This document shows, piece by piece, positions 2 to 15,245 of a stretch of DNA of 64,000 bases. The notes beneath the pieces are model-generated. The model did no database searches, was not told where the DNA came from, and saw only the letters and a program-made list of their open reading frames with translations. Position numbers and translations under genes: made by a program. Position 1 is the stretch's first letter; every line of letters begins with the position of its first letter. This DNA comes from Marivirga sericea (GTDB lineage Bacteria > Bacteroidota > Bacteroidia > Cytophagales > Cyclobacteriaceae): assembly GCF_900177665.1 (NCBI RefSeq), contig NZ_FXAW01000006.1, forward strand, positions 124,001 to 188,000. Reading direction: 5' to 3'.

Positions 2-838
2 CAATGGAGACCAATAGGCACTCCACATTGGGGAGGCCATATAGAGAGGCTTATTGGGTCTCTGAATGGTGTTCTTCATACGCTACCTGGTACAACCTTT
101 TCGAAGAAAGAATATAGAGAAAACTATAATTCTGAAGACAAAGCAACTTTATCGCTTATTGAATTAGAAAAATATCTGAGTATGTATATAGTGGATATTT
201 ACCATAAAAAAGTTCACAGTGGGTTGAAAGTTTCTCCTATGTTTAAATATACAGAAGGGCTACTTGGAAGTGGCTCATTTGGAGGATATGGATTACCAGC
301 AAAGGTCTCTGATGAGGATAAATTAAAGAAAGATTTTATGCCATTCTTTGAAAGAACTGTTCAAAGGTATGGAGTTAAAATTGATCAGATATATTATTAT
401 CATGATATTTTGAGACGTTGGGTGAATTCTAACGATCCTAAAATACCTTCACAAAAAAGAAAGTTTATATTTTGTAGAGACCCGAGAGATATTTCAATTA
501 TTTATTTTCTAGATCCTGAAACCAGGAATTATTATTCGATTCCTTGTAGAGATATCACTAGGCCATCAGTAAATATTTGGGAGTTTAGGGATGCAATTAA
601 ACATTTGAAAGACCAAGGAGCAAAATCAATTGATGAGGATAAAATTTTTGATGCATATGAAAGACTTAACAATCTAAAAGAAGAGTCAAAGATTAAAACT
701 AAACATAAGAAAAGAAGAACAAAAGAAGGTAGAACAAATGTCCATGAATCAATAAAGAAGATTCAAAGTGAGAATCTTGATACAATTGATGAGCTTGATA
801 TTAAACCTTTTGACGACATAGATTATGGATCATATTAA
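2..838 (+). CDS. tniA: TniA/TnsB-family DDE transposase, C-terminal part (5' end outside window)
   Basis: The frame is open from the first base and continues into the annotated ATG at 182, so the gene is cut by the window edge. The segment just after the edge reads TPHWGGHIERLIGSLNG, the stretch around the catalytic glutamate of the DDE (rve) integrase core, very close to the Tn5053-type TniA motif. It is followed by a Mu-transposase C-terminal region rich in basic residues, which in this family makes contacts with TniB. The protein cuts and joins transposon ends. The stop codon lies 14 bp inside tniB, showing translational coupling. An internal start at 182 is unlikely, because it would remove the catalytic residue. 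Confidence 0.9.
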   Translation, partial: QWRPIGTPHWGGHIERLIGSLNGVLHTLPGTTFSKKEYRENYNSEDKATLSLIELEKYLSMYIVDIYHKKVHSGLKVSPMFKYTEGLLGSGSFGGYGLPAKVSDEDKLKKDFMPFFERTVQRYGVKIDQIYYYHDILRRWVNSNDPKIPSQKRKFIFCRDPRDISIIYFLDPETRNYYSIPCRDITRPSVNIWEFRDAIKHLKDQGAKSIDEDKIFDAYERLNNLKEESKIKTKHKKRRTKEGRTNVHESIKKIQSENLDTIDELDIKPFDDIDYGSY

Positions 839-1718
839 AAGGGACCTAATACCACTACTTAATAAAAGTAAGCAAGAAAGAATAAGCTTTATTCTAAATG
901 ATCTATGGATAGGCTATCCTAGAGCTCATGAAATACTCAATAAGCTTAATTTCTTGCTACGACATCCAAGAATAAATAGAATGCCTAGTATGTTATTGGT
1001 TGGAGAAACTAATAATGGTAAAACGGTTTTACTCAAAAAATTTATAAATGAAAATAAACCATTTCTTGATGAGGATGAAGAAAGATTAACAGCGCCAGTA
1101 CTCTATATACAAGCTCCACCAGCTCCTGATGAAAAGCGATTTTATAATTCTATATTGGATGCTACTTTTACTCCTTATAGGCTTAATGATAAACTTGATA
1201 AACGTCATCAACAAGTAATCAAAGTATTGAAGCAATTGGATGTTAAGGTTCTAATAATAGACGAAATACAACACATTTTAGGAGGAACTATAAGTAAGAG
1301 AGTCTCATTTTTGAATGTGATAAAGTATATGTCAAACGAATTGAGGATATCGATTATTGGAGCTGGGATTCATGAAGCATTTAATGCTATTAGTACAGAT
1401 CCTCAACTTATTAATAGATTTGACCAACAAGTGTTGCCAAGATGGTCATATGATTCAGATTTTTTGAGATTACTTGCAAGCTATGAAACTTTACTACCTC
1501 TTAGAAAATCATCACACTTAGTTAAAGATAGTACCTTAAATAAAAAGATTTTTAATTTGAGTGAGGGTATTATTGGAGAGGTGTCTTCTATTATAAAAAA
1601 GGCTGCAACATACGCAATAGAAAATGACATAGAATGTATAAATAATGAAGTTATTAAATTAATTAAATTTGCGCCTCCCTCGTCCAGAAGACATAATTCA
1701 GCCTATATTAACTCATAG
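825..1718 (+). CDS. tniB: TniB/TnsC-like AAA+ transposition regulator
   Basis: A 297-residue AAA+ ATPase. The Walker A motif GETNNGKT is at residues 60-67 and Walker B VLIIDE at 142-147. A following GAGIHEAFNAI segment and an NRFDQQVLPRW segment match sensor and C-terminal features of Tn5053 TniB. In Tn7-like systems this protein assembles on target DNA, receives the site signal from TniQ-type proteins and activates the transposase. It starts 14 bp before the end of tniA and its 3' end overlaps the probable tniQ start by 50 bp, so the three genes form one operon. Length and motif order are normal for the family. Confidence 0.92.
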   Translation: MDHIKRDLIPLLNKSKQERISFILNDLWIGYPRAHEILNKLNFLLRHPRINRMPSMLLVGETNNGKTVLLKKFINENKPFLDEDEERLTAPVLYIQAPPAPDEKRFYNSILDATFTPYRLNDKLDKRHQQVIKVLKQLDVKVLIIDEIQHILGGTISKRVSFLNVIKYMSNELRISIIGAGIHEAFNAISTDPQLINRFDQQVLPRWSYDSDFLRLLASYETLLPLRKSSHLVKDSTLNKKIFNLSEGIIGEVSSIIKKAATYAIENDIECINNEVIKLIKFAPPSSRRHNSAYINS

Positions 1719-2694
1719 TGATTTCTTTGATTTATTGCCTTGCTTTACCAAACCAAAGGAAAATGAGTTGTTCACATGTTGGGTGTATCGTATGGCCCAC
1801 AGTCATGATTTAAAGGTTCAAACCTTTTTCAAAGTTCTTTTTGGCAATTACAATATATGGAATAGGGATATTGATCGACTTGTACCGGATGAGATCATTC
1901 ACTTTTTATCAAAAAGAAATAATATTGATTATCAAAAGGGCTTAGCGACCACCTTAAAATATTATGAAGGAAAATTATTCCCAAAGCTTAATTTTTACGG
2001 TAATTCCAAGTGGATTATGCCTTACGGTATTTACCATCGAAAACGTTTTAAATATGGGATGCAGTTTTGTCCTACTTGTCTAAATAAGGATGATACACCA
2101 TATGTAAGAGTATATTGGAGGCTTTCATTATTAACCTTCTGTGGTAATTGCCTTAAATACTTACTAAACAAATGTCCTAAATGTAATTCTCCGTTTGTTT
2201 TCTTCAGACAAGATGTTGGGTACAAGAATATTTTAGAGAAAAGTAGTATTTATAATTGCTTTAATTGCGGAATAGATTTAAGGAACTTTAGTGGAGAGGA
2301 TGTCAATCCAAGAACTTTAGAGTTACAATCTTCATTATTTTTAGAGGTCACCAAAATTACTAGTAATTCTGCCTATAGTAAAATAGGGTTTTTTGAGGTC
2401 TTACATCAATTCCTTGCAGTGCTTTCTAGCCGATACTTTAGATGTGTTCCTGTGCAGAAATTTATGGACAAGAAATTTAATGTGGCATATGAACCAAGAG
2501 AGGGAGGGATTAAGAATTCCTTTGACTTTCAAACAACTGAAATAAGAGAATTAAGACTAAATCAGGCGATCTGGTTATTATCTAATTGGCCACTAAATTT
2601 TCTCTTTGTTAACAAGCAGATTGGAAATTATAGGAGTCATTGGATAAAGGATATGCATAATCCACCTAGTTGGTTTATGAAGGTTTTTGATTAA
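1669..2694 (+). CDS. tniQ: TniQ-family target selection protein
   Basis: A 341-residue TniQ-domain protein. The N-terminal block around residues 30-44 (ENELFTCWVYRMAHS) is the TniQ signature, and four CxxC pairs (about 134-137, 158-161, 169-172, 197-200) form the expected zinc-binding region. TniQ/TnsD proteins recognise a target or bridge between a target-recognition factor and the AAA+ protein. At this length it is closer to short TniQ proteins than to long TnsD with its C-terminal DNA-binding extension. The start is uncertain: the frame opens with TTG at 1669, inside tniB, and no ATG precedes the TniQ block. Its stop codon overlaps that of the convergent TnsE-like gene. Confidence 0.9.
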   Translation: MRLPRPEDIIQPILTHSDFFDLLPCFTKPKENELFTCWVYRMAHSHDLKVQTFFKVLFGNYNIWNRDIDRLVPDEIIHFLSKRNNIDYQKGLATTLKYYEGKLFPKLNFYGNSKWIMPYGIYHRKRFKYGMQFCPTCLNKDDTPYVRVYWRLSLLTFCGNCLKYLLNKCPKCNSPFVFFRQDVGYKNILEKSSIYNCFNCGIDLRNFSGEDVNPRTLELQSSLFLEVTKITSNSAYSKIGFFEVLHQFLAVLSSRYFRCVPVQKFMDKKFNVAYEPREGGIKNSFDFQTTEIRELRLNQAIWLLSNWPLNFLFVNKQIGNYRSHWIKDMHNPPSWFMKVFD

Positions 2695-4508
2695 GTGGTT
2701 TTGCTCAACAATTCTAATCCGGCTTTTTTTATCCTTTTATATCTATTTTTAGAATGTTTACATATAATATAGTTGAATTGAAGGTTGTCCAAGGTTGCTT
2801 TATTCTTTCGCCACTTACCCTCTATAGTAGGCACTATTTTAATTAAACTCAATAATTGGTTATCGTCAATAAATTCAGAGTTTTTTGAAAAGACTAATGT
2901 GGTAAAATGTTCTGCTGACTTTTCTCTAATTCTAGGTTCTATTTCTAATATATAAAATATCTTCCCATTACTTTCAGCTTCAATTATGATAACTCCCCTT
3001 CTTCCAGACCAATTATTTCTGTTTACTTTAGTAAAGCACGCAAAGTGTTTAGCCTTTTTATCTAAACCATATAATGGAATAGTATTTAATATTTTATAAT
3101 ATTCTCTGTTAAGTACTTCGTCAGCTTCTTGATGAACAACTCTATTTGAAATTTTGAAATCATTTTCGAGTAGCTGCATTGATTCAAAGAATAGCTTTAA
3201 GTTATTAATAATTTCTCTTTCTATATTGTCATCTTTATTCTCATTATCTACGTTTGCTGCTGCAGGTCCGTCTGGATTTGATCCTTCTTTGCTTGTTGTT
3301 GTAATATCCTTCTTTTTTTCTTCTTTTATCAAAGTCTCAACCTTATACTTTTGTTTCTCTTTTGACATTCTCTCGCCTGAAGGGATGCCTAAGATTGAAT
3401 CATTGAATGAAAGCTCTTCAAAGGGGAAACTATCATCATGATCTGAAGTTGGATTCTTATTGTTACCAGGCTCATCTGGATTCCTTTTATAATTCTTACG
3501 TTTTTCTAGATTCTCATCATCCTTATTAGCTCCTTGTTCACCACTTATTAGTGAAGCAAAATTTAAGAAATCATAGGAAAACTTAATAGAGAGTTGACTT
3601 AAATCGTAAGCTAATAATCCCCAAGTATCATTTATCTGTACTTTTTTCCCGTATAAGGCAAATGACTTCACGTTTGCAGGTATATATGCAGATATTGGAT
3701 AAAATTCTTTATTAGTCTTAAAGTATTCATCTCTTAGCCTATTTTGACAATGCTTGAACATTGTTTCTACATTAGGATTTGAGAGTATATTTGCAATTAC
3801 GTGAAAATCATATGGCTTATAATTCTCTATTGTAATTAATGAAACTTCCTTTTGGCCATTATCAAAGATTTCTTCTTGATAATCAAATACTATATCGGGA
3901 TTAAATGAAAAGGAAGGGTTAAATTGGTATTCTACCATCCTTGGTGTTGAAAAAAACAGGGCTTTCAATAATGATAAAGGTGGAATCAATAAAAAACTAG
4001 GTTTAAACTTATCAGTTTCATCCTTTTTAATATAATCGAAGTTATCTTCCTTTACATAAATGAATTTAGTATCGTATAATTGACTTCTAAAAAGTTTTGT
4101 GTTTTCAGAATCACCATTTTTGCTTTCCAGAAAATCTATAAATGGCCATGAATTAGCCTCAATGATATCTCGTAGTCTGATTGATCTATTATAATTTCCA
4201 TGAAATTTAAATTTATAAGTGTGATCTTTATATTGCATTGTCCTTTCAACAGCAACACCATTATTAAATATCATTCCAATATGAAGTCTCAATAATTCTT
4301 GGATTGGAAATTGAATTACAGCATCATATCCCACTATATTTTGAGAATTAAAAAGGTTTGACTTATAAAATGGAGCATTATTAAAATCATACTCGTCTTT
4401 TAATTTTCTTAAGTAAATAAGTACCTTTTGATTATTTGGTTTGGTGATTCCTGCTAATGAGGATATATACCATAAGCCTTTAAGATTGCGGATTTCTTGA
4501 TAGATCAT
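2691..4508 (-). CDS. TnsE-like transposition protein (divergent)
   Basis: A 605-residue soluble protein encoded against the tni operon. I recognise no exact family, but the layout resembles Tn7 TnsE, which directs insertion into replicating or mobile DNA by binding DNA with 3' recessed ends and the sliding clamp. Similarities judged by eye are an IPPLSLLKALFFS helix at residues 175-187, like the IPQLELARSLFLIN region of TnsE; a long charged low-complexity linker at about 325-440; and a C-terminal domain with FYILEIEP (518-525) followed by TTLVFS (536-541), like FVLLEVD...STKVL in TnsE. The position beside tniQ fits. In Tn7 the gene is co-directional with tnsABCD, whereas here it is inverted. 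It could instead be an unrelated cargo protein; a profile search would decide. Confidence 0.5.
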   Translation of the reverse strand: MIYQEIRNLKGLWYISSLAGITKPNNQKVLIYLRKLKDEYDFNNAPFYKSNLFNSQNIVGYDAVIQFPIQELLRLHIGMIFNNGVAVERTMQYKDHTYKFKFHGNYNRSIRLRDIIEANSWPFIDFLESKNGDSENTKLFRSQLYDTKFIYVKEDNFDYIKKDETDKFKPSFLLIPPLSLLKALFFSTPRMVEYQFNPSFSFNPDIVFDYQEEIFDNGQKEVSLITIENYKPYDFHVIANILSNPNVETMFKHCQNRLRDEYFKTNKEFYPISAYIPANVKSFALYGKKVQINDTWGLLAYDLSQLSIKFSYDFLNFASLISGEQGANKDDENLEKRKNYKRNPDEPGNNKNPTSDHDDSFPFEELSFNDSILGIPSGERMSKEKQKYKVETLIKEEKKKDITTTSKEGSNPDGPAAANVDNENKDDNIEREIINNLKLFFESMQLLENDFKISNRVVHQEADEVLNREYYKILNTIPLYGLDKKAKHFACFTKVNRNNWSGRRGVIIIEAESNGKIFYILEIEPRIREKSAEHFTTLVFSKNSEFIDDNQLLSLIKIVPTIEGKWRKNKATLDNLQFNYIICKHSKNRYKRIKKAGLELLSKTT

Positions 4509-4924: not shown

Positions 4925-5164
4925 TCACTCTTTTCTAAGACTTTCACTTATCGCCTTTATATAACCTTCTGGTTTTAAGTCTAAAGCTGCTGCTAACTTA
5001 AAAATTGTAACTAAAGTTGGTTGTTTATGTCCATTTTCCAATCTAGAAATATGAGTGGGGTGAGAATCTATCAAGTCTGCTAGTGCCTCTTGGGATAAGT
5101 TAAGTCTCTCCCTATATTCTTTTAGTAATTTACCATAAGCTGTAATTATTTCCTTATCCTCCAT
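4925..5164 (-). CDS. XRE-family helix-turn-helix regulator
   Basis: A 79-residue single-domain Cro/C1-type DNA-binding protein. The helix-turn-helix is clear: LNLSQEALADLIDSHPTHISRLENG, with the conserved Q-E-x-L-A and S-R-x-E-x-G positions, followed by a PTLVTIFKLAAALD helix. I start it at ATG 5164; an upstream TTG at 5218 would add 18 residues with no domain content. It is divergent from the small gene at 5265, with about 100 bp between, so it probably represses both. Such regulators are common near integrated-element cargo. Confidence 0.8.
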   Translation of the reverse strand: MEDKEIITAYGKLLKEYRERLNLSQEALADLIDSHPTHISRLENGHKQPTLVTIFKLAAALDLKPEGYIKAISESLRKE

Positions 5165-5264
5165 TAGCTCTAGCAAGCTAATTCCTTGAAGAAAAACCAA
5201 CCATAGCCTAAAGGGCAAGATGTAAAATAAATTATTTATATTCCGATGAATTTAAATTTGAGCG

Positions 5265-5539: not shown

Positions 5540-6046
5540 TTAAATTAATCGAAGATTGGTTAGTCTATAAGTCATAGCAATATTACTAACTTTATATTCT
5601 TTAGCTAATTCTTCAATTTGTTCCTCACCAATCTCTTTTGATTCAAAGCTAAGTATGTTCTTTTCCAAAAGAAATTTTGGCATCAATAAAGAAGCTGCAA
5701 AAGCATTCGCTTCTACCTCGTGAATACCTTTTGCATTACCTCTTGTGAATGTTATCTTTTCATCAATGAAGGTTGATTTTAATTTTCTATGTAAAATGTA
5801 ATGTCCCAACTCATGAGCAATCGTAAATCTTTCCCTTTGAGGACCTTGGGCAATGTCAATACCAATTACACTGTGATTATCACCTTTTAATACTAAAACT
5901 CCAGATAAGTCATTGCCAAGGGATTTTCTTATTATATTAATTCCGAGTCTGTTTGCAATTTCAGTCACATCGATAGATGGTTTTTCCTGTTTAGTAAGCT
6001 TTAAGAGCTTAGCAGACTCTATATCAATCTTATCAAAATTAATCAT
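5540..6046 (-). CDS. ImmA/IrrE-family metallopeptidase
   Basis: A 168-residue zinc peptidase. The diagnostic motif RFTIAHELGHYILHR carries the HExxH zinc ligands and catalytic glutamate, and a downstream EVEANAFAASLLMP segment supplies the third ligand and the typical helix. ImmA/IrrE proteins cleave or inactivate a partner XRE repressor, often on DNA damage or a host signal. ATG 6046 is chosen over the TTG at 6052. The gene follows the XRE gene at 6058-6363 with an 11-bp gap on the same strand, the standard regulator-protease operon of integrative elements. Confidence 0.92.
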   Translation of the reverse strand: MINFDKIDIESAKLLKLTKQEKPSIDVTEIANRLGINIIRKSLGNDLSGVLVLKGDNHSVIGIDIAQGPQRERFTIAHELGHYILHRKLKSTFIDEKITFTRGNAKGIHEVEANAFAASLLMPKFLLEKNILSFESKEIGEEQIEELAKEYKVSNIAMTYRLTNLRLI

Positions 6047-6057
6047 GGTCAATAAAA

Positions 6058-6363
6058 TTATGAATTCAATTCTTCCAAGAATTTAGCTACATGAGGTTTG
6101 TTAGCTTTAATTCTTTTTTCCGCTTTTATTTGTTCTAACAAGTCAAATGGGAAAATGTCTTCCATTTTGGCGTTAAAAGTTAATAAAATATTAAATATTA
6201 AATGGATGGTAGGCTTTTGTCTACCCTTTTCAATATTTGTTATTGAGACTCTACTGAGATCTAGCTTAGAACCAAAGTCTTCCTGACTTAGTTTCTTAGA
6301 ATTTCTAAATCTTCTAAGATTGTTGCCGAACTCAATGTATACCTGATCGAATGATGTTGTCAT
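6058..6363 (-). CDS. XRE-family repressor paired with ImmA-like protease
   Basis: A 101-residue protein with an N-terminal helix-turn-helix (KKLSQEDFGSKLDLSRVSITNIEKG, residues about 23-47) and a short helical tail ending in LEELNS. It is the first gene of a two-gene minus-strand operon with the ImmA-like peptidase, its probable inactivator. The upstream region holds a perfect inverted repeat TTTACAT-GT-ATGTAAA over the predicted -33 region, a probable operator for autorepression. A related half-site arrangement occurs before the ubiquitin-like operon at 6731, which suggests that this repressor also controls that operon. Confidence 0.9.
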   Translation of the reverse strand: MTTSFDQVYIEFGNNLRRFRNSKKLSQEDFGSKLDLSRVSITNIEKGRQKPTIHLIFNILLTFNAKMEDIFPFDLLEQIKAEKRIKANKPHVAKFLEELNS

Positions 6364-6697: not shown

Positions 6698-6730
6698 ATT
6701 TAATAAATATTGATTTTAAAAATAAAAATT

Positions 6731-7399
6731 ATGGCTTTAGAAAAAAAGCAAATAAGATTACGCTTAGTAGTCGAAGGAGAGTGGTTTGATTGGGACCAAC
6801 AATTTATTACTGGTCAAGAAATTAAGGATTTAGCTGGTATAAATACAAATAAACCGATTTATCTATCTTTAAAGGATCCTTGGGATGATGAACTTATTGA
6901 GAATGATTTAAAAGTTGATTTAGCACGTGAAGGAATAGAGTTCTTTTATGTTAAGAATCCTTTAAAATTTAAAATAGGAAATGATCAGTACGATTGGAAT
7001 AGTCAGTATATAACTGGATTGCAATTAAGGCAAGTTGGTAGATTAACTGATGATCAGGACATATTCTTAAAGATAAAAGGTGGTTTTGAGGATGAATTGG
7101 TTGAAAATAATACCAAGATAGATTTAGCTAGGCCTGGGATAGAAAATTTTGTTCTAAGTAATAGGAATTATATTTTAATTATCTCTGGCAAGGAGAGAGA
7201 GTGGACAAAAGCTGAGATTTCCTTTAAGGAGGTTATTGAGCTTCGTTTTGGGGAATGTATTGATGATGGCAAAAGGTCATATTCAGTTACTTACTCAAGA
7301 GGACCAAAAGAAAATATTTCTGGTTCTATGATTTCAGGGGATAAAGTTTTTGTTAAAAATAAAATGATATTTAATGTCACTCCTACAGATAAATCATAA
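6731..7399 (+). CDS. Multi-ubiquitin-like protein (three tandem Ub-like domains)
   Basis: A 222-residue protein built from three ubiquitin-like repeats at about residues 6-75, 77-144 and 146-222. The first two share a clear pattern: (F)DW-N-QYITG, then LKD/LKG...DELVEN, then KIDLARPGIE. This is the bacterial Multi_ubiq family, described by comparative genomics as the modifier of small operons with E1-like and DUF6527 proteins. It ends in FNVTPTDKS without a diglycine tail, as I recall is usual for this family, so conjugation chemistry is unclear. ATG 6731 is preferred to the in-frame TTG at 6710. It overlaps the next gene by 26 bp. Confidence 0.88.
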   Translation: MALEKKQIRLRLVVEGEWFDWDQQFITGQEIKDLAGINTNKPIYLSLKDPWDDELIENDLKVDLAREGIEFFYVKNPLKFKIGNDQYDWNSQYITGLQLRQVGRLTDDQDIFLKIKGGFEDELVENNTKIDLARPGIENFVLSNRNYILIISGKEREWTKAEISFKEVIELRFGECIDDGKRSYSVTYSRGPKENISGSMISGDKVFVKNKMIFNVTPTDKS

Positions 7400-8555
7400 T
7401 CCAGATTTAAAACAATTACGGAATGATGGTTATGAAATAACCATAAAAGGTGGACACTTATGTGTTCACCATATTCCTTATGTAAGTCCTAGCGGTATGA
7501 TCTTATATGGAATGATGATTTCAAAGTTAGACCTTATTTCTAACTTAAAGATTGGAAAACCTAATACACACGTAGCATACTTTTCAGGAGAAGCGCCATG
7601 TGATGGGAAGGGTTCTATCCTAAATAAGATAGTTATTGGTTCACAAAAACAAGTTTTTGATGGGATTGAAGTCAATCATACGTTGTCAAGTAAACCTGGT
7701 CCGCAAGGGTATCTTAATCAATATGAGAAGGTAGTTGCTTACGTTCGTTTAATAGAAGCTCAAGCGCAATCAATCGATCCTAAAGTTACTGCTAGAACAT
7801 TTAAGGTTATGATAGACGATGGTTCCGAGGATCAACATTTTATGTATCCTGATACTAATTCTAGTAGAGCAAACATAGAGGAGTTAAATGATAAGTTCAC
7901 CAATCAAAACATTGCAATAATAGGTTTAGGTGGTACCGGTTCATATGTTCTGGATGCTGTTTCTAAAACTAGAGTAAATAGTATTGGAATTTTTGATGGA
8001 GATCAAATGAAGGTGCACAATGCTTTTAGAAGCCCAGGTGCTTATTCGATTGATGACTTGAACATGTTCGAGAAGAAAGTAAACATCCTGTATAAAACTT
8101 ATTCTAATATTTCTAAAGTTATTCAACCTTACCCAGAATTTATTAGTGAGGATAACATTAATAAGCTTGATAGATACTCTTTTGTATTTGTCTGTGTTGA
8201 TGATGCTGACAGTAGAAAATTAATTTCAACCTACCTTATTGACAAAGGCATTCCTTTTATTGATGTTGGTATGGGTGTTTTAAAGGTAAATAATCAATTG
8301 ATAGGTATGGTTCGGACAACATTAGTAACCAGAGAGTATCATGACCATACAAAAGATAGATTGCCTCTAACCCAAGTTGATAATAATGATTATAATGATA
8401 ATATCCAGATTTGTGAATTAAATATGCTTAATGCTGCGAAAGCAGTAATTAAGTGGAAAAAGTTTTCTTTATTTTTTCAAGATTTATTATTAGAACATCA
8501 TAGTGTTTATTCAATTAACGATTCTATGCTACATAATGATGAGGTATCAACATAA
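7374..8555 (+). CDS. ThiF/E1-like adenylyltransferase with N-terminal DUF6791-type domain
   Basis: A 393-residue protein with two parts. Residues 1-165 match the domain usually fused to ThiF in multi-ubiquitin operons (GYEITIKGGHLCVHHIPYV, then a KPGPQGYLNQYEKVVAYV block), annotated in such operons as DUF6791 or E2/JAB-like. Residues 175-393 are an E1/ThiF Rossmann domain with the ATP-binding GLGGTGS at 184-190, FDGDQ at about 207-211, and a C347 in NIQICELN where E1 enzymes often have their thiol. It should adenylate the Ub-like partner encoded immediately upstream. No separate E2 gene is present. It overlaps both neighbours, so the operon is tightly coupled. Confidence 0.87.
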   Translation: MSLLQINHNPDLKQLRNDGYEITIKGGHLCVHHIPYVSPSGMILYGMMISKLDLISNLKIGKPNTHVAYFSGEAPCDGKGSILNKIVIGSQKQVFDGIEVNHTLSSKPGPQGYLNQYEKVVAYVRLIEAQAQSIDPKVTARTFKVMIDDGSEDQHFMYPDTNSSRANIEELNDKFTNQNIAIIGLGGTGSYVLDAVSKTRVNSIGIFDGDQMKVHNAFRSPGAYSIDDLNMFEKKVNILYKTYSNISKVIQPYPEFISEDNINKLDRYSFVFVCVDDADSRKLISTYLIDKGIPFIDVGMGVLKVNNQLIGMVRTTLVTREYHDHTKDRLPLTQVDNNDYNDNIQICELNMLNAAKAVIKWKKFSLFFQDLLLEHHSVYSINDSMLHNDEVST

Positions 8556-8889
8556 ATTCGTTTCACTTATTCCAGAGGACTTAGAAGAATCAGTACTATA
8601 TGTTTCTACAGAATATGCAACAGTTAGTCATCTTTGTGCCTGTGGATGTAAGGAAGAGGTTGTGACACCTTTAAGTAAAGAAGATTGGTATCTGATTTTT
8701 GATGGTGTATCTATTACCTTAAAGCCTTCGATTGGAAATTGGGATTTTGATTGTCGGTCACATTATTGGATTATCAATAATAAGGTGGTTTGGTGTCCGC
8801 CAGAGGAACCTTTATTTAAGAATTCGAAAAAGAGCAACACTAGGAAATGGTGGGATTTTTTCTCGTTTTTTACCTCATTAAAGGTATAA
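8536..8889 (+). CDS. DUF6527 family protein of the ubiquitin-like operon
   Basis: A 117-residue protein with the DUF6527 signature: HLCACGCKEEVVTPL near residues 32-46 (C34, C36, C38), then TLKPSIGNW at 61-69 and CRSHYWI at 73-79, a likely metal-binding set of Cys and His. DUF6527 proteins accompany Multi_ubiq and ThiF genes and have been proposed to act as peptidases in them; that role is inference here. I start it at ATG 8536 rather than at GTG 8503, which gives a 20-bp overlap with the ThiF gene. A strong terminator follows 42 bp downstream, closing the operon. Confidence 0.85.
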   Translation: MMRYQHKFVSLIPEDLEESVLYVSTEYATVSHLCACGCKEEVVTPLSKEDWYLIFDGVSITLKPSIGNWDFDCRSHYWIINNKVVWCPPEEPLFKNSKKSNTRKWWDFFSFFTSLKV

Positions 8890-8997: not shown

Positions 8998-9669
8998 TTA
9001 TCTAACTGTTGTTTTGTCTGTATGCGGATTGTATGAAATTGTCCCTATTCGAGGCTGTACAATTCTTGTTAATTCTTTGTTTGATTCTAATCCTTGATTT
9101 CTCATAAAACAGAATACTCGTATATTTAATTCTTCAGTTGTGAAGAAATCCAACAAAAGTTTTGCAGTAGAGTAACTAGTTCTACCTAGAGTTAATATAT
9201 CATCAACAATTGTAATGTTAGTAACTCCTCTTGGAATAATACCTGATACGGTCATACTTTTAATATGAGCTTTTGGAAAAACTCTATCCTTAGAATTAGC
9301 AAAATGAGAGCTTCTAGAAACTGAAGTCTGCCTTTTTACTAGGGGAGCTACTGAATGACCTAGATTAGCTTTTACTAAACTATCACACAAAATCTGAGTA
9401 TTCCATAAGGAATTTGCTCTATATTTTCTGCTACTTGGAACAGGAATTAATAATGTATCTTCATTTAAGAAATCTTTAAAGTAAGTAAGGTATTTATCTT
9501 CCGTTAATACGTCTATTATTTTTTTAATATTATTTCTCTCTCCATTTTTTATGGAATCTTTAATTGTAACACTAGTTTTTGCTTTCTTGGTTGACCCTTT
9601 AGCAGAATAATTTAAAAGGGAGCCAAATCTAAAAGGCAAATTCCTTCCTTCTGGTGAGAGCTTGTACAT
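8998..9669 (-). CDS. ComF-like phosphoribosyltransferase-domain protein
   Basis: A 223-residue type I phosphoribosyltransferase. The PRPP-binding loop ITIVDDILTLGRTS lies at residues 153-166, preceded by a LLIPVPSSRKYRA segment as in ComF and related enzymes. An N-terminal zinc-finger pair like that of ComF is not seen. It overlaps the DprA-like gene by 41 bp and follows it on the same strand, so the two are made together. Pairs of DprA-like and PRTase genes recur in mobile elements and have been suggested as defence or nucleotide-sensing modules; no activity can be read from the sequence. Confidence 0.85.
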   Translation of the reverse strand: MYKLSPEGRNLPFRFGSLLNYSAKGSTKKAKTSVTIKDSIKNGERNNIKKIIDVLTEDKYLTYFKDFLNEDTLLIPVPSSRKYRANSLWNTQILCDSLVKANLGHSVAPLVKRQTSVSRSSHFANSKDRVFPKAHIKSMTVSGIIPRGVTNITIVDDILTLGRTSYSTAKLLLDFFTTEELNIRVFCFMRNQGLESNKELTRIVQPRIGTISYNPHTDKTTVR

Positions 9670-10321
9670 TTTCTAAGTGTGTATTAAAATTATACCTATT
9701 TAAAATTTCAGCACCATAACTTATCATCTCAGTGGTCCAAGTTACCTTTGGATCATTAGTAATGTTCTCTAAAATAAATAATGATCTACCTAGCCTTAAT
9801 GCTTCCCATCCTTGATGTTTAGTCCCGCTTTTCTCTGATGCCTCAACAATAATTGTTGCATCGCTTATAAGTGCCATAGTCTTATTCCTCTGAGGAAAAT
9901 TTTTACCTTGAATAGGTATTCCTGGTCTAAATTGGCTAATTGCTAAATGATTCCTTTTTATCTCATCAAGAAGTTCCTTATTCTCAGCAGGGTAAACTTT
10001 GTCTAGAGGAGAACCTACAACAGCAATTGTTTTCCCTTTGTATTCAATTGCTGTTTTATGTGCCATTGTATCAACACCTTTTGCTAATCCACTAACAATA
10101 ATAAAGTCTAGTTCCACTAGCATTTTAACTAATGATTTAGTTCGGGCAAGACCTTCTGGAGAAACATTTCTAGAACCAACAACAGAGACTCTTCTTCCTT
10201 CAATTAATAGACTTTCATCCCCATCTATAAATAGCTCTTTAGGTGCATTTTTTGCCTCAATTTCAGTTAATTCACCCTTTAATTCTTCTAAGTTTATTTT
10301 TCTCATACAGTAATAAATCAT
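9629..10321 (-). CDS. DprA/Smf-like Rossmann-fold protein
   Basis: A 230-residue protein consisting of the DprA Rossmann-like core alone: VSVVGSRNVS at 45-54, VSGLAKGVDTMAHKTAI at 76-92, FPQRNKTMALISD at 142-154 and EASEKSGTKHQGWEALRLGR at 160-179. These are the nucleotide- or DNA-binding loops of DprA. The C-terminal winged helix and N-terminal SAM-like domains of housekeeping DprA are absent, so this is a cargo paralogue rather than the host competence protein. ATG 10306 is an alternative start. It forms an operon with the downstream phosphoribosyltransferase. Confidence 0.87.
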   Translation of the reverse strand: MIYYCMRKINLEELKGELTEIEAKNAPKELFIDGDESLLIEGRRVSVVGSRNVSPEGLARTKSLVKMLVELDFIIVSGLAKGVDTMAHKTAIEYKGKTIAVVGSPLDKVYPAENKELLDEIKRNHLAISQFRPGIPIQGKNFPQRNKTMALISDATIIVEASEKSGTKHQGWEALRLGRSLFILENITNDPKVTWTTEMISYGAEILNRYNFNTHLENVQALTRRKEFAF

Positions 10322-10873: not shown

Positions 10874-13678
10874 TTAATCAGAAATATTGCAAATTGCGGG
10901 ATTTCTAGGTTTTTGGAGTTTAATATTTATTAGACCGTTCGGAGAAATGATTTTACAATCAGGACTAATATACTCGATGTGAATATGATTTTGCATATAT
11001 CTTAAATGAGGATATAATTCTTTTACCATGTTTGTCATAGTTCCTATTTTCTGACCATAGTATACAAAATCTCCCTGTTTCACTTCTGGAAAGACATAAA
11101 AGTGCCTTGAAATATAGCCGAATTCGTTCTGAATAGAGATTATCTTCTGATTATCATATCCATTTTTGACAATTCCTATATCAATTACCTTCCCTGTCAT
11201 TGTGGAAAAAATAGGTTCACCTGGTGTTGCTAAGAAATCAGTGCCTGAATGCTTTTTATCTAACCTATCAGAAAGAAACATTCCGTGACCGTCATAGTCG
11301 TTCCGGACTATGCCAGATAAAGTAGGGGATCCAAAATTGGCAAATCCACCAATATATTTGTTAGTCGTTCCAAAATTCACATTAAATATTGAAGATTTAT
11401 CTATATTATTAACAATTGAATTATCATGTTTATTTTCATTCAGTTCTTGATCATGTTTATCTTTTTCTTCTATCAATGATAGAAAAAAGTTAATATCATT
11501 CAATTTAAACTCATAATTAAAGTATTCATTAATATCAGAAGCAGTTAAATAATAATTTTCGTATTCGTAATTAGGCCTAATTATTTCATTCCCCTGTTTA
11601 TCAACATAGGACCAACCGGAGCCTTCTTCAAATCTTCCTCCAACATAAAAATTAAAGGTGCAATTATCAGCACCTGATAGATTACAAATTTCTTCTTCAA
11701 TTTTCTCAAATACTTTACCTATATCTTCACTGAACCTATTATATAATTTATCCACTCTAAAAATATCTTTAGGAAACTTATAGGATGTATGCTCTACAGG
11801 GTATTTTACGGTGAAAGAAGTACAATAAGGATTATCCTTAACTTTTATTATTTCTCCCTTTTTACCATCATGAAAAATATAATATTCAATGTCATCCCAT
11901 GCACATAAATTTGAAATGTCTCTATTGATTACTTTTGCAACTCCATATGTATCATATAAATATGTATCACCATAAAAATGATACTCATTATTGAACTTTT
12001 TATATCCACTCTTAATTTTCTTTATTGGGCTGTCAGGATAATAACAAATGATCTCATTCTTAGCTTTATCTATGAAAAAAATATCCGAACCACTTATCGA
12101 GTACTGGTGTTCCCCCCCTACGTTTATAATGTATTCTATTGTTCCCTTTGGTTTGTTTCTCACTCCCCTTATTTTGTTATAATTATCAAATAAAGTATTG
12201 GGTCTAAAATTTTCATTAAGTGAAATTATTTCCACCTTACTAGGTGAAACATCAAATTCTCTCAAGGGTAATATTTCATCATAAATATAGTTCTTGACAC
12301 TGTCCTTTAGAATTCCATTCTCGTAATAGGCAATATATTTTACTTGGTTATTGCGAGATATTATATGTTTTCCATGTTTAACTCCATTGATGGAAATTCC
12401 TTTATAAGTATCATGTCCTATTTTTAACTCAAAAGCTCCATTTATTTTATTATTATCAAACATTCCTGCTATCCAGGCATTAGATTCAATTAAAAGATCT
12501 TTTTTATTATCAAAACTAATTGATGGTTTGTAATTCAGATATAGAATAGCATCCCCATTTATCTTACCTTCTTTGATTAGTCCCTTATACCCATAGACCT
12601 TAAACCCTTCATTTGAGAGCAGGCTCATATAAATACTATTTTTGTTTTTTTTTACTCCAATTGAATAGGTTGGATAGTCTTTTTGAAGTTTAATAATTTC
12701 ATTAAATGGATTTCTTATTTCATAGTTTTTTAAAAAAGTTGTTTCATGAACTGATTTGATTTCGGACTGTTCAACATAGGAATTGAGTGTGGTTGTCCTA
12801 TAATTTAATCCGTATACATATCTGAAAATAGATGTTTGAGGAAATATTATTCTACCAGGGCTCAAAGTAAATATTCCAAAACCAGAATCGTTAACACGTT
12901 TATTAATAGTTGAGATTACATTTATTCTTTCCGAATTAATATAATGTGGTTTAAGAAATATTTCTTTTATTTTACTTAAAATAGCTTTGTATTCAATTTC
13001 ATTTATTGATTCTTCAAAAGTTGTATAATCATCAGAATTGATAAATATTTCATTAGCAAATTCGGAATCGAGGGTTGAATATTTTGTCCAACTAGGCTTT
13101 TTATTAGGTTCGGTTATTAAGGTTTTAGTTGAATCAAAGCTCAATATTCCAAAAGCGAAATCAATGTTTAAAATATTTTTGTAATCCAAACTAGCTAAAT
13201 AATATATCACTTGTCCATCAGGTCCAAATCCTAATGATTTCACCCCTAAAAAATATTTTCTCTCTAAAAGATAATCGTAAAGGCCGATTTGATTTACTAA
13301 TGTAATCGGTTCAAAAAAGTACTCTCCTGATTTAATTATTTCCTCCGTAAATCTAGGCTCATTATAAAAGTCGATTTCGTTAAACGGTGTTCCAAATTGG
13401 AAAATAGTACTATCAGCTTTAATAGTTGTAGACTTAATTATATTTGGATCGCTTCGAATGATAGCTGTAGAAATATACCACTTATCTCGATATTTAAAGT
13501 CTTGATCAAGCTCTCTATCAGAATAACTATAATTTATTTTTATCTTTTTTTCTTGGGCGAAACAGTAACTAGGATCAAGTATTGAAAAACTTAAAAAGAG
13601 TATAGTTGTAAAAATTTTTAAAGAAGTAGGAATAATATCTTCTGTCATTAAATTGATATTTATCAATTTAATATACAA
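10874..13678 (-). CDS. Secreted MORN-repeat/M23 (LytM) metallopeptidase
   Basis: A large exported protein of 934 residues from ATG 13678; ATG 13648 would remove ten residues. A hydrophobic signal segment (KIFTTILFLSFSILDPSYCFAQ) occurs at about residues 21-42. The middle, around 355-430, carries MORN-like turns such as YKGLIKEGKINGDAILYLN. The C-terminus is an M23 peptidase domain with zinc ligands H810 and D814 (HSGTD) and the catalytic pair H898/H900 (HIHIEY). M23 enzymes cut peptidoglycan cross-bridges. It is the last cargo gene before the transposon's right end. A large M23 protein is unusual Tn7-like cargo. Confidence 0.8.
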   Translation of the reverse strand: MYIKLININLMTEDIIPTSLKIFTTILFLSFSILDPSYCFAQEKKIKINYSYSDRELDQDFKYRDKWYISTAIIRSDPNIIKSTTIKADSTIFQFGTPFNEIDFYNEPRFTEEIIKSGEYFFEPITLVNQIGLYDYLLERKYFLGVKSLGFGPDGQVIYYLASLDYKNILNIDFAFGILSFDSTKTLITEPNKKPSWTKYSTLDSEFANEIFINSDDYTTFEESINEIEYKAILSKIKEIFLKPHYINSERINVISTINKRVNDSGFGIFTLSPGRIIFPQTSIFRYVYGLNYRTTTLNSYVEQSEIKSVHETTFLKNYEIRNPFNEIIKLQKDYPTYSIGVKKNKNSIYMSLLSNEGFKVYGYKGLIKEGKINGDAILYLNYKPSISFDNKKDLLIESNAWIAGMFDNNKINGAFELKIGHDTYKGISINGVKHGKHIISRNNQVKYIAYYENGILKDSVKNYIYDEILPLREFDVSPSKVEIISLNENFRPNTLFDNYNKIRGVRNKPKGTIEYIINVGGEHQYSISGSDIFFIDKAKNEIICYYPDSPIKKIKSGYKKFNNEYHFYGDTYLYDTYGVAKVINRDISNLCAWDDIEYYIFHDGKKGEIIKVKDNPYCTSFTVKYPVEHTSYKFPKDIFRVDKLYNRFSEDIGKVFEKIEEEICNLSGADNCTFNFYVGGRFEEGSGWSYVDKQGNEIIRPNYEYENYYLTASDINEYFNYEFKLNDINFFLSLIEEKDKHDQELNENKHDNSIVNNIDKSSIFNVNFGTTNKYIGGFANFGSPTLSGIVRNDYDGHGMFLSDRLDKKHSGTDFLATPGEPIFSTMTGKVIDIGIVKNGYDNQKIISIQNEFGYISRHFYVFPEVKQGDFVYYGQKIGTMTNMVKELYPHLRYMQNHIHIEYISPDCKIISPNGLINIKLQKPRNPAICNISD

Positions 13679-13742: not shown

Positions 13743-13814
13743 TATCCGTTTCTTCTAAAGGTATTATTATTCGCATTTACTTCTGTAGGTTCGCAACCCC
13801 TTCTGTAAATCACA
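13743..13814. repeat. Transposon right end with three TnsB/TniA-site repeats
   Basis: Two repeats of TCGCA-N4-CTTCTGTA lie at 13771-13787 and 13791-13807, identical at all 13 fixed positions and 20 bp apart. A weaker copy, TATCC-GTTT-CTTCTAAA, lies at 13743-13759. The last repeat is followed by AATCACA, so the element ends ...ACA at 13814. Spaced binding sites just inside an ACA terminus are the hallmark of Tn7-family ends. Confidence 0.8.
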
Positions 13815-13819
13815 CCTCC
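13815..13819. other. Candidate 5-bp target duplication (CCTCC)
   Basis: The five bases next to the ACA terminus would be the host target duplicated on insertion, as Tn7-family elements make 5-bp duplications. The matching copy should lie beyond the left end, outside this window, so this is a prediction. Confidence 0.5.
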
Positions 13820-14663
13820 CCCGACAAGCGCCACATCAGAAATTGTGTGATGAGGTGCCCTGTAGGGTCTGGTCGCAATCAAAGAAGCATGAGCTCCTAA
13901 CCTTCCGGCAACAGAATGTATTTTTGTTGTTTCTAATGCTTCAGTCAAGCTCAAAGGAGGCAAAATTGATGGAAATCGTTTTGCTAACATAGTTTTTCCT
14001 GCTCCAGGAGGACCTACCATGATTACATTATGTCCACCTGCCGCTGCAATTTCAAGTGCTCTTTTAATGTTTTCTTGTCCTTGTACATCAGCAAAATCTG
14101 CCTCATAATCATTGAGATTTGTAAAGAAAATATCCCGGGTATCCATCTCCATAGGCTTGATTTCCGATCTTCCTTCCAGAACGCCTATGGCATCATTTAA
14201 ATTTGATACAGGAATAACATCAAGATTATTGACAATTGCGGCTTCGGCTGCATTTTCTTGCGGTAGAATAAACCCTTTAAAGCCTTGCTTTCTAGCTTCA
14301 ATGGCTATTGGTAAAACGCCTTTTATAGGACGGAGCGTACCATCTAAGGCTAATTCTCCCATAATCATATAGTGCCCTAATTCTTGAGTGAAGATTTGTT
14401 CTGAACCACTTAAAATTCCAAGAGCAATTGGTAAATCATAGGCAGACCCTTCCTTTTTTACATCAGCCGGAGCTAAATTGATGACTACTTTCTGCCGTGG
14501 CATTTTGTAGCCACTGTATTTGATGGCAGCATCAATACGGTGCTCACTTTCCTTGATGGCATTATCTGGCAATCCCACCATATGAAACCTAGTGCCTTGG
14601 CTTACATTCACCTCAATTGTGATAACATTTGCATCTACTCCATAAACTGAACTTCCATAAGAC

Positions 14664-15245
14664 TTAGCTAACATACCCTAATCTTTTTTCTATCAGTAAA
14701 ATAAAAATATGAATAATTTTGATGTGAATTTCTTGAATTCTGTCAGCATATCCAGTGTGAGGAACACGAATATCTACATCAGAGACTTGAGACAATTTGC
14801 CTCCATCTTTTCCTGTTAAACTAATAATTTTGATTCCTTTCGCTTTTGCTGCTTTGCAGGCTTCAAGGATATTCTCCGAATTTCCGCTTGTGCTAATGGC
14901 TAAAAGCACATCCCCTTTTCTCCCTAATGCTTCTACAGCTCTACTGAAAATAAAATTAAACCCGTAATCATTTCCGACACAAGTAATATGACTAACTTCA
15001 GATAATGCCATAGCAGCTATAGCTGGTCTTTCTTCTCTATATTTTCCACTTAATTCTTCAGCGAAATGCATGGCATCACAATGAGAACCGCCATTTCCAC
15101 AGCTCATTACTTTTCCCTCCGCTGAGAAGGAGTTCACCATTAATTCTACGGCAGCTTCAATATTAGCTAACTGCTCTGGTTGGTTCAAAAAGTCATTCAG
15201 CGTCTTTTGTGCTGAATCCAATTCATTTTTAATAAGGTTAATCAT
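14664..15245 (-). CDS. gmhA: Phosphoheptose isomerase-like SIS protein
   Basis: A 193-residue single SIS-domain protein of GmhA/DiaA size. [22 protein letters not shown] near residues 48-69 and the sugar-phosphate loop [12 protein letters not shown] match GmhA, which converts sedoheptulose 7-phosphate to heptose phosphate for LPS core or S-layer glycans. The H-x-E pair for zinc or substrate is present (HFAEE, and QEIHIKIIH near the C-terminus). The gene ends 11 bp inside comM and the two were probably co-transcribed. A DiaA-like replication role is an alternative but less likely. Confidence 0.85.

Follow-up and report, generated by a model that had tools for sequence, protein, structure and literature searches.

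Profile comparisons point to a remote TnsE homologue adjoining tniQ in a comM-inserted Tn7-like transposon of Marivirga sericea

Can a protein that no TnsE model matches directly be the TnsE of a Bacteroidota transposon, and what could it do in an element lodged within comM? This question arises from a 64,000-nucleotide stretch of the 4.74-Mb genome of Marivirga sericea (C8:124001-188000, hereafter the window), in which a gene for 605 amino acids (aa) on the reverse strand (2691..4508; ATG start, no internal stops) meets tniQ on the forward strand (1669..2694; short form, 341 aa; PF06527 TniQ, E 2.1e-15). The two genes are convergent and their TAA stop codons share two bases, so that no gene lies between them. 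A preliminary description of the locus had likened the 605-residue protein by eye to TnsE, the protein that guides Tn7 into replicating DNA, and the intact open reading frame (ORF) beside tniQ agrees with its account. Through profile comparisons with intermediate sequences, we identify the protein as a remote TnsE homologue over both its N- and C-terminal regions, and its C-terminal domain is predicted to adopt the fold of the TnsE C-terminal structures (5d17/9d5l).

The first line of evidence comes from the family to which the protein belongs. A three-row TniB alignment scanned over genome contigs gave 54 loci, and within the order, TniB was matched 13 times in 12 of 390 genomes; the tniB matches amount to 67 loci, 62 of them distinct. 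Used as a profile, the first three proteins drew 12 distinct sequences of 400 aa or longer from 2,561 ORFs, and 28 at the next step; 27 of these 28 form our family alignment (A4; the protein of L078, a near-copy of that of L076, was omitted). As references we took five Tn7-type TnsE, four from plasmid records annotated as TnsE and one from the same genus (locus L036; PF18623 TnsE_C, E 2.8e-9, above the cut-off), and their profile retrieves the structures 5d17, 5d16, and 9d5l. The 27 family members align with these references over 491 columns at an aligned identity of 11% (hhalign probability 98.9, E 3.5e-17). When the family is divided, the window protein alone matches the 20 relatives from other phyla (97.4, E 1.5e-11, 515 columns), these 20 match Tn7-type TnsE (98.1, E 9.5e-14; 96.5 without L036), and so do the seven Bacteroidota members (96.9; 91.6 without L036). 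Control comparisons, comprising TniA, TniB, TniQ, and TnsA profiles, reversed alignments, and column shuffles (30 for each of two alignments), reached at most 0.3%. The genomic setting of the 20 intermediates is independent of the seed, as they were located through TniB. In addition, PF18623 is matched at E up to 1 by seven of the 27 members (best 1.8e-6), the window protein not being among them; its identity to the other 26 is 11–19%.

The window protein itself retrieved only its own sequence in 395 genomes of the phylum and nothing in viral contigs. In the 390 genomes of the order it gave 12 weak matches besides itself, of which the one in G524 (E 0.001) is real by context, this homologue (L015) being located in the same kind of element, 2.3 kb from tniQ. 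PF18623 matched in 17 of the 390 genomes, with one match above the cut-off; among the four whose surroundings were viewed, the matches in G746 and G449 are TnsE by context, and those in G651 and G479 showed by eye no transposon genes among ORFs of at least 150 aa. The G449 homologue (L038), found at E 0.038 with PF18623, is convergent with tniQ and abuts it. No direct match of the window protein to TnsE was found in Pfam and NCBIfam, and weak Pfam matches, e.g., to YobI-ATPase and WH_MCM2, were set aside. Similarly, a 607-aa protein encoded near comM in a short element at another locus (L053:7638-9458) was not counted as TnsE, sharing only part of the N-terminal half; it is possibly a TnsE with a different C-terminal domain (hhalign 89.6, E 1.9e-6 against the 27 members; 13.0 against the seven from Bacteroidota). 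At that locus, comM is interrupted further downstream than in the window.

The second line of evidence is the predicted structure. The full AlphaFold model (27 rows) is mediocre, with a predicted local distance difference test (pLDDT) score of 62.5 and a predicted template modelling (pTM) score of 0.52. The separate model of the C-terminal domain (residues 424-605, encoded at 2694..3239, reverse strand) is better (pLDDT 75.7, pTM 0.76; 24 rows, the alignment A5 omitting L065, L075, and L095 for their short C-terminal parts). In a Foldseek search of 350,542 PDB chains, ranks 1–6 for the full model and 1–7 for the C-terminal model were all occupied by the TnsE C-terminal structures 5d17, 5d16, and 9d5l, with probabilities of 0.97–1.00 overall and 0.98–1.00 for the C-terminal model, and the next-highest non-TnsE probability was 0.13 for the full model (best 50 of 83 matches) and 0.08 for the C-terminal model (all 41 matches). 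No viral model was matched by Foldseek at E up to 0.001. The N-terminal half of the full model contains many strands, with no PriB entry among the best 50 of 83 Foldseek matches; the corresponding half of TnsE is described as two SSB/PriB-like domains (PMC10293859). A missing significant profile match together with a fold unlike the TnsE C-terminal domain had been named beforehand as the outcome that would speak against TnsE, and the comparisons came out the opposite way.

The three features that had suggested TnsE to the eye, i.e., a helix, a charged linker, and a LEIE...TTLVF segment, are all present. The linker, a charged low-complexity region at about residues 322-426, has pLDDT <50 in the model. 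In the unsupervised profile-profile alignment with Tn7-type TnsE, IPPLSLLKALFF (residues 175-186) pairs with 'LPKFELARKMFF', and the LEIE...TTLVF segment (about residues 520-541) pairs with 'LEIDTSDNRKTMSTRIM'. These correspondences exceed chance, as reversed and column-shuffled profiles never rose above 0.3% probability. IPPLSLLKALFF is the form taken in the window protein by a P..E..R..FF segment that five of five reference TnsE and 26 of the 27 family members share, a count that is only descriptive because the pattern was written after the alignment had been seen. The equivalent segment in L121, a Tn7 TnsE that aligns with 5d17 in its C-terminal part, is IPQLELARSLFL (residues 120-131). We take the clamp-interaction motif of Tn7 TnsE to lie at residues 121-131, and if this position is right, the helix would be the equivalent of the Tn7 clamp motif. 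The glutamine that follows the conserved proline at this presumed position occurs in none of the 27 family members and in two of the five references. Using consensus patterns for the clamp motif, which include a strict Q[LM]xL[FL], we found three loose hexamer matches in the window protein; since 1279 of 2000 shuffles contain at least one, they were rejected as chance, and the sole candidate segment has no glutamine. A clamp-interaction motif whose mutation reduces transposition is reported for Tn7 TnsE (PMC5371812).

The gene is part of an element that, as initially proposed, carries tniA, tniB, and tniQ and is inserted in comM. This element measures 15,599 bp, from L014:14217 to position 13814 of the window, and contains tnsA, tniA, tniB, tniQ, tnsE, and cargo. 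A TnsA-like endonuclease is encoded just left of the window (PF08722, E 1.1e-7), where tniA, coding for the TnsB-like DDE transposase, also starts (complete gene L014:14995-16839, 614 aa); the C-terminal part of tniA (2..838, forward strand) carries PF09299 Mu-transpos_C (E 1.7e-8, residues encoded at 182-835) and is followed by tniB (825..1718, forward strand; TnsC-like AAA+ ATPase; PF05621 TniB, E 3.9e-68) and tniQ, with no same-strand gene of at least 150 aa within 2.5 kb downstream of the latter. The left end (L014:14217) begins TGTAATTTAC... and the right end (13780..13814) terminates ...GTAAATCACA, and over their terminal 35 bases these ends form an inverted repeat identical at 27 of 35 positions. 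A 5-bp target-site duplication, CCTCC (13815..13819 and L014:14212-14216), flanks the element, giving the order comM-CCTCC-TGTAATTTAC...GTAAATCACA-CCTCC-comM, with ends TGT...ACA. The 5' part of the interrupted comM lies at 13815..14674 (reverse strand) and its 3' part at L014:13533-14159. In silico excision of the element and one CCTCC restores the junction residues of the intact comM of the congener G699, which is 93% identical to the 5' part in the window. Among congeners, comM is also intact in G746 and interrupted in G734. In the latter (L056:17327-18921) the orientation is opposite to that in the window, with the tnsA end next to the 5' part of comM and on the comM strand. The insertion point is a glycine run ~14 residues ahead of LFLDEL in ComM, which we take as the Walker B motif. 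The 5-bp repeat accgc reported for AbaR25 in Acinetobacter comM (PMC3691203) would fall in the same glycine run.

Among related elements, tnsE is present at 31 of the 62 distinct tniB loci at E up to 1e-4, in some cases as a fragment at the end of a stretch. This is a lower bound because the sequence beyond tniB extends no further than ~10 kb for loci of the contig scan and ~14 kb for those of the relatives. In 29 of these 31 loci tnsE is on the strand opposite to tniB, and the named hosts include Bacteroidota, Pseudomonadota, Acidobacteriota (L091), and Campylobacterota (L109). Convergent tniQ and tnsE genes lie directly side by side in the window, L038, L114, and L097; in L095 the two also abut, on the same strand, and in L056 the convergent genes are 244 bp apart. 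The tree of 58 TniB rows gave no settled position for the TniB of the window. comM was found at seven of the 31 tnsE loci, including the window, and is uninterrupted in L061. lipA (lipoyl synthase) lies 64–144 bp from tnsE in 14 of the 31 (L065, L067, L068, L070, L071, L076, L077, L080, L081, L085, L086, L092, L093, and L111); with L113, which lacks tnsE, 15 of the 62 distinct loci are lipA-adjacent, all in Pseudomonadota, and the identity of lipA was supported by Pfam LIAS_N and Radical_SAM in the three tested. These elements, from Neisseria, Chromobacterium, Xanthomonas, Colwelliaceae, and others, resemble that of the window in their TniB (45–52% identical), short TniQ, and homologous opposite-strand TnsE, but their tnsE ends near lipA instead of abutting tniQ, and no comM was found there. 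lipA is probably the attachment site of these Pseudomonadota Tn7-like elements, a site of which no report appeared among 10 of the 519 papers matched in a literature search.

Two further loci touch on the distribution of TnsE. A TnsE-like protein of ~600 aa is encoded on a conjugative Pseudomonas plasmid (L131:13863-15665), with no annotated tni genes within 14 kb on each side. The same-genus genome G746 carries tnsB, tnsC, tnsD (PF15978, E 3.5e-62), and the Tn7-type tnsE used as a reference on one strand (L036:12416-18923); therefore, both TnsE branches exist within one Bacteroidota genus.

Taken together, it is quite probable that the window protein serves as TnsE target selector to a Tn7-like transposon of Bacteroidota, 15.6 kb long and of the cut-and-paste type, most likely working as TnsE of Tn7 does. 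If so, the gene would be active, and its product would recognize replicating DNA, probably of incoming plasmids, by a lagging-strand or recessed-3'-end structure, contact the replication machinery, and recruit TniB and the TnsA/TniA transposase to this DNA, providing a spreading route alongside the TniQ-dependent one that would have put the element in comM. Several results weigh against this interpretation. The window protein has no match to PF18623 at E up to 1 and none to TnsE among PDB sequences, so that of the profile search proposed in the preliminary description the direct form failed and the chain through intermediates succeeded. Compared alone with Tn7-type TnsE, it reaches an hhalign probability of 4.3 (0.2 without L036); the first three seeds reach 44.9 (1.1 without L036), and neither of these weak results was used as proof. 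The split of the family is not a fully independent test, because the intermediates were gathered by a profile seeded with the window protein and two others. On the structural side, the Foldseek E-values are 0.0048–0.1, none below 0.001, and the C-terminal model superposes on the TnsE structures with a root-mean-square deviation of 6.8–8.6 Å and TM-scores of 0.42–0.58; we attribute these modest E-values and TM-scores to the imperfect model and to the divergence of the protein. The sliding-clamp peptide whose search had been suggested was not recovered in its strict form, no Q[LM]xL[FL] pentamer being found in the window protein. Finally, the support for plasmid targeting is indirect and thin: none of 72,556 plasmid records matches the window protein, and the Chromobacterium member matches six of them, none covering 80%.

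How the element recognizes comM is a related question. Tn6022, as published, needs TnsF for comM (PMC10293859). Protein clustering of 19 comM-associated loci, most of them incomplete stretches, gave no TnsF-like family common to at least three; apart from host genes or frames antisense to genes, the shared families are TnsA, TniA, TniB, TniQ, comM, and TnsE (five loci), and an equally divergent TnsF would escape such clustering because the window's own tnsE failed to join the other tnsE. Likewise, 15 of the 17 element ORFs of at least 80 aa in the window show no recombinase-like match in Pfam, a search that included no TnsF profile and that a very divergent TnsF could escape; the remaining two ORFs run antisense to tnsE and dprA. 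Most simply, comM would be recognized by the short TniQ, alone or with an unrecognized partner. A more specific proposal, which we regard as possible but doubtful, is that the Bacteroidota branch homes to comM with neither TnsF nor a CRISPR guide, the site being read by the short TniQ or by TniQ plus TnsE, and that its TnsE still targets replication structures despite lacking the known clamp peptide.

A different consequence could be drawn from the same observations, namely that the protein descends from TnsE but no longer has the replication-guided function and now, e.g., aids TniQ in choosing comM as a TnsF substitute, or regulates transposition. The clamp-binding motif is neither strict nor conserved, no TnsF is recognizable in the element, leaving comM recognition without a known specificity factor, tnsE abuts tniQ in four loci (the window, L038, L114, and L097), and identity to the other members is low (11–19%), all of which would fit. 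However, tnsE does not track comM: the comM-inserted element of L054, with both comM parts visible, has no detected tnsE, whereas tnsE occurs in the lipA-adjacent relatives (14 of 31 tnsE loci) and in the elements of G524 and G449, whose comM is intact. We therefore consider this loss of function unlikely. More unlikely still is a degenerate, non-functional tnsE. The same low identity would be expected of it, and in the P..E..R segment of the window protein S and K replace E and R; nevertheless, the 605-aa reading frame is free of stops, and the target-site duplication and recognizable ends are intact. A cargo gene, e.g., for defence, unrelated to TnsE and adjoining tniQ by chance is highly improbable: the lack of a direct TnsE_C match and the varied cargo of the element would allow it, but the profile chain with clean controls, the TnsE-first structural ranking, and the presence of the family at half of the related tniB loci across phyla argue against it.

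Compared with known systems, a TnsE target selector in the window element would be closest to published descriptions of the comM-inserted Tn6022, which was considered here by its description and not by sequence, and to which we do not assign the element. Tn6022 is described as encoding a divergent TnsE on the opposite strand, one of two TnsE branches with <10% identity between them (PMC10293859). The common features are the insertion in comM with a 5-bp target-site duplication, the TnsA/TnsB/TnsC/TniQ set, the opposite-strand tnsE, and a TnsE of very low identity to that of Tn7, recognized by remote homology and fold. In contrast, Tn6022 has TnsF with TniQ, and its tnsE is reported to lie toward the left end, well away from the core genes, instead of abutting tniQ. 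The novelty initially claimed for a TnsE accompanying TniA, TniB, and TniQ in inverted orientation thus does not hold, as this arrangement is published for Tn6022 (PMC10293859) and TnsE homologues are described as almost universal in glmS- and comM-targeting elements, with mechanistic data coming from prototypic Tn7 only (PMC11406308). As far as another survey is concerned, tnsE homologues are confined to clades 1 and 3, the latter including Bacteroidetes hosts (PMC8649781). Tn7 itself shares with the window the 491-column profile alignment and the best C-terminal fold match (5d17, 5d16, 9d5l), but its tnsE is on the same strand, behind tnsD.

Therefore, the finding extends the known range of TnsE and is not a new kind of system, its novelty being modest. 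What appears to be undescribed is a Bacteroidota branch with a tniQ-abutting tnsE and a comM insertion without recognizable TnsF; no description of a Bacteroidota TnsE was found in a library of open-access papers without their supplements. The 27 divergent members, from four phyla, keep the P..E..R..FF segment and the C-terminal domain but not the clamp-type glutamine, and these kept and lost features allow the way in which TnsE locates replicating DNA to be tested by comparison. The comM insertions without recognized TnsF raise the testable question of the recognition factor, and Bacteroidota elements with TnsE could serve as genetic tools in that phylum.

The remainder of the element in the window is cargo. 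Two HTH_3 regulators (4925-5218 and 6058-6363) and an M78/IrrE-like peptidase (5540-6052) were assigned by Pfam on the reverse strand. On the forward strand, genes at 6710..8889 code for a multi-ubiquitin protein (PF14452, 2.9e-27), a DUF6791-ThiF (E1-like) protein (PF20590, 4.5e-45, with PF00899, 3.8e-15), and a DUF6527 protein (PF20137, 2.9e-24), which, judged by these domains, constitute a bacterial ubiquitin-conjugation-like set. A related set is present in the L015 element (L015:8389-10983), with matching ThiF and DUF6527 genes plus an E2 and a JAB domain. The other cargo genes are on the reverse strand: one without a Pfam match at E up to 1 (8998-9669), one for a 934-aa protein with a C-terminal M23 peptidase domain (10874..13678; PF01551, 6.2e-12), and one for a DprA-family protein (9629-10321; PF02481, 3.4e-54). 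The latter rides in an element that disrupts comM, also a competence gene, and the cargo of the L094 element includes CoiA_N (competence) domains, one above and one slightly below the Pfam cut-off.

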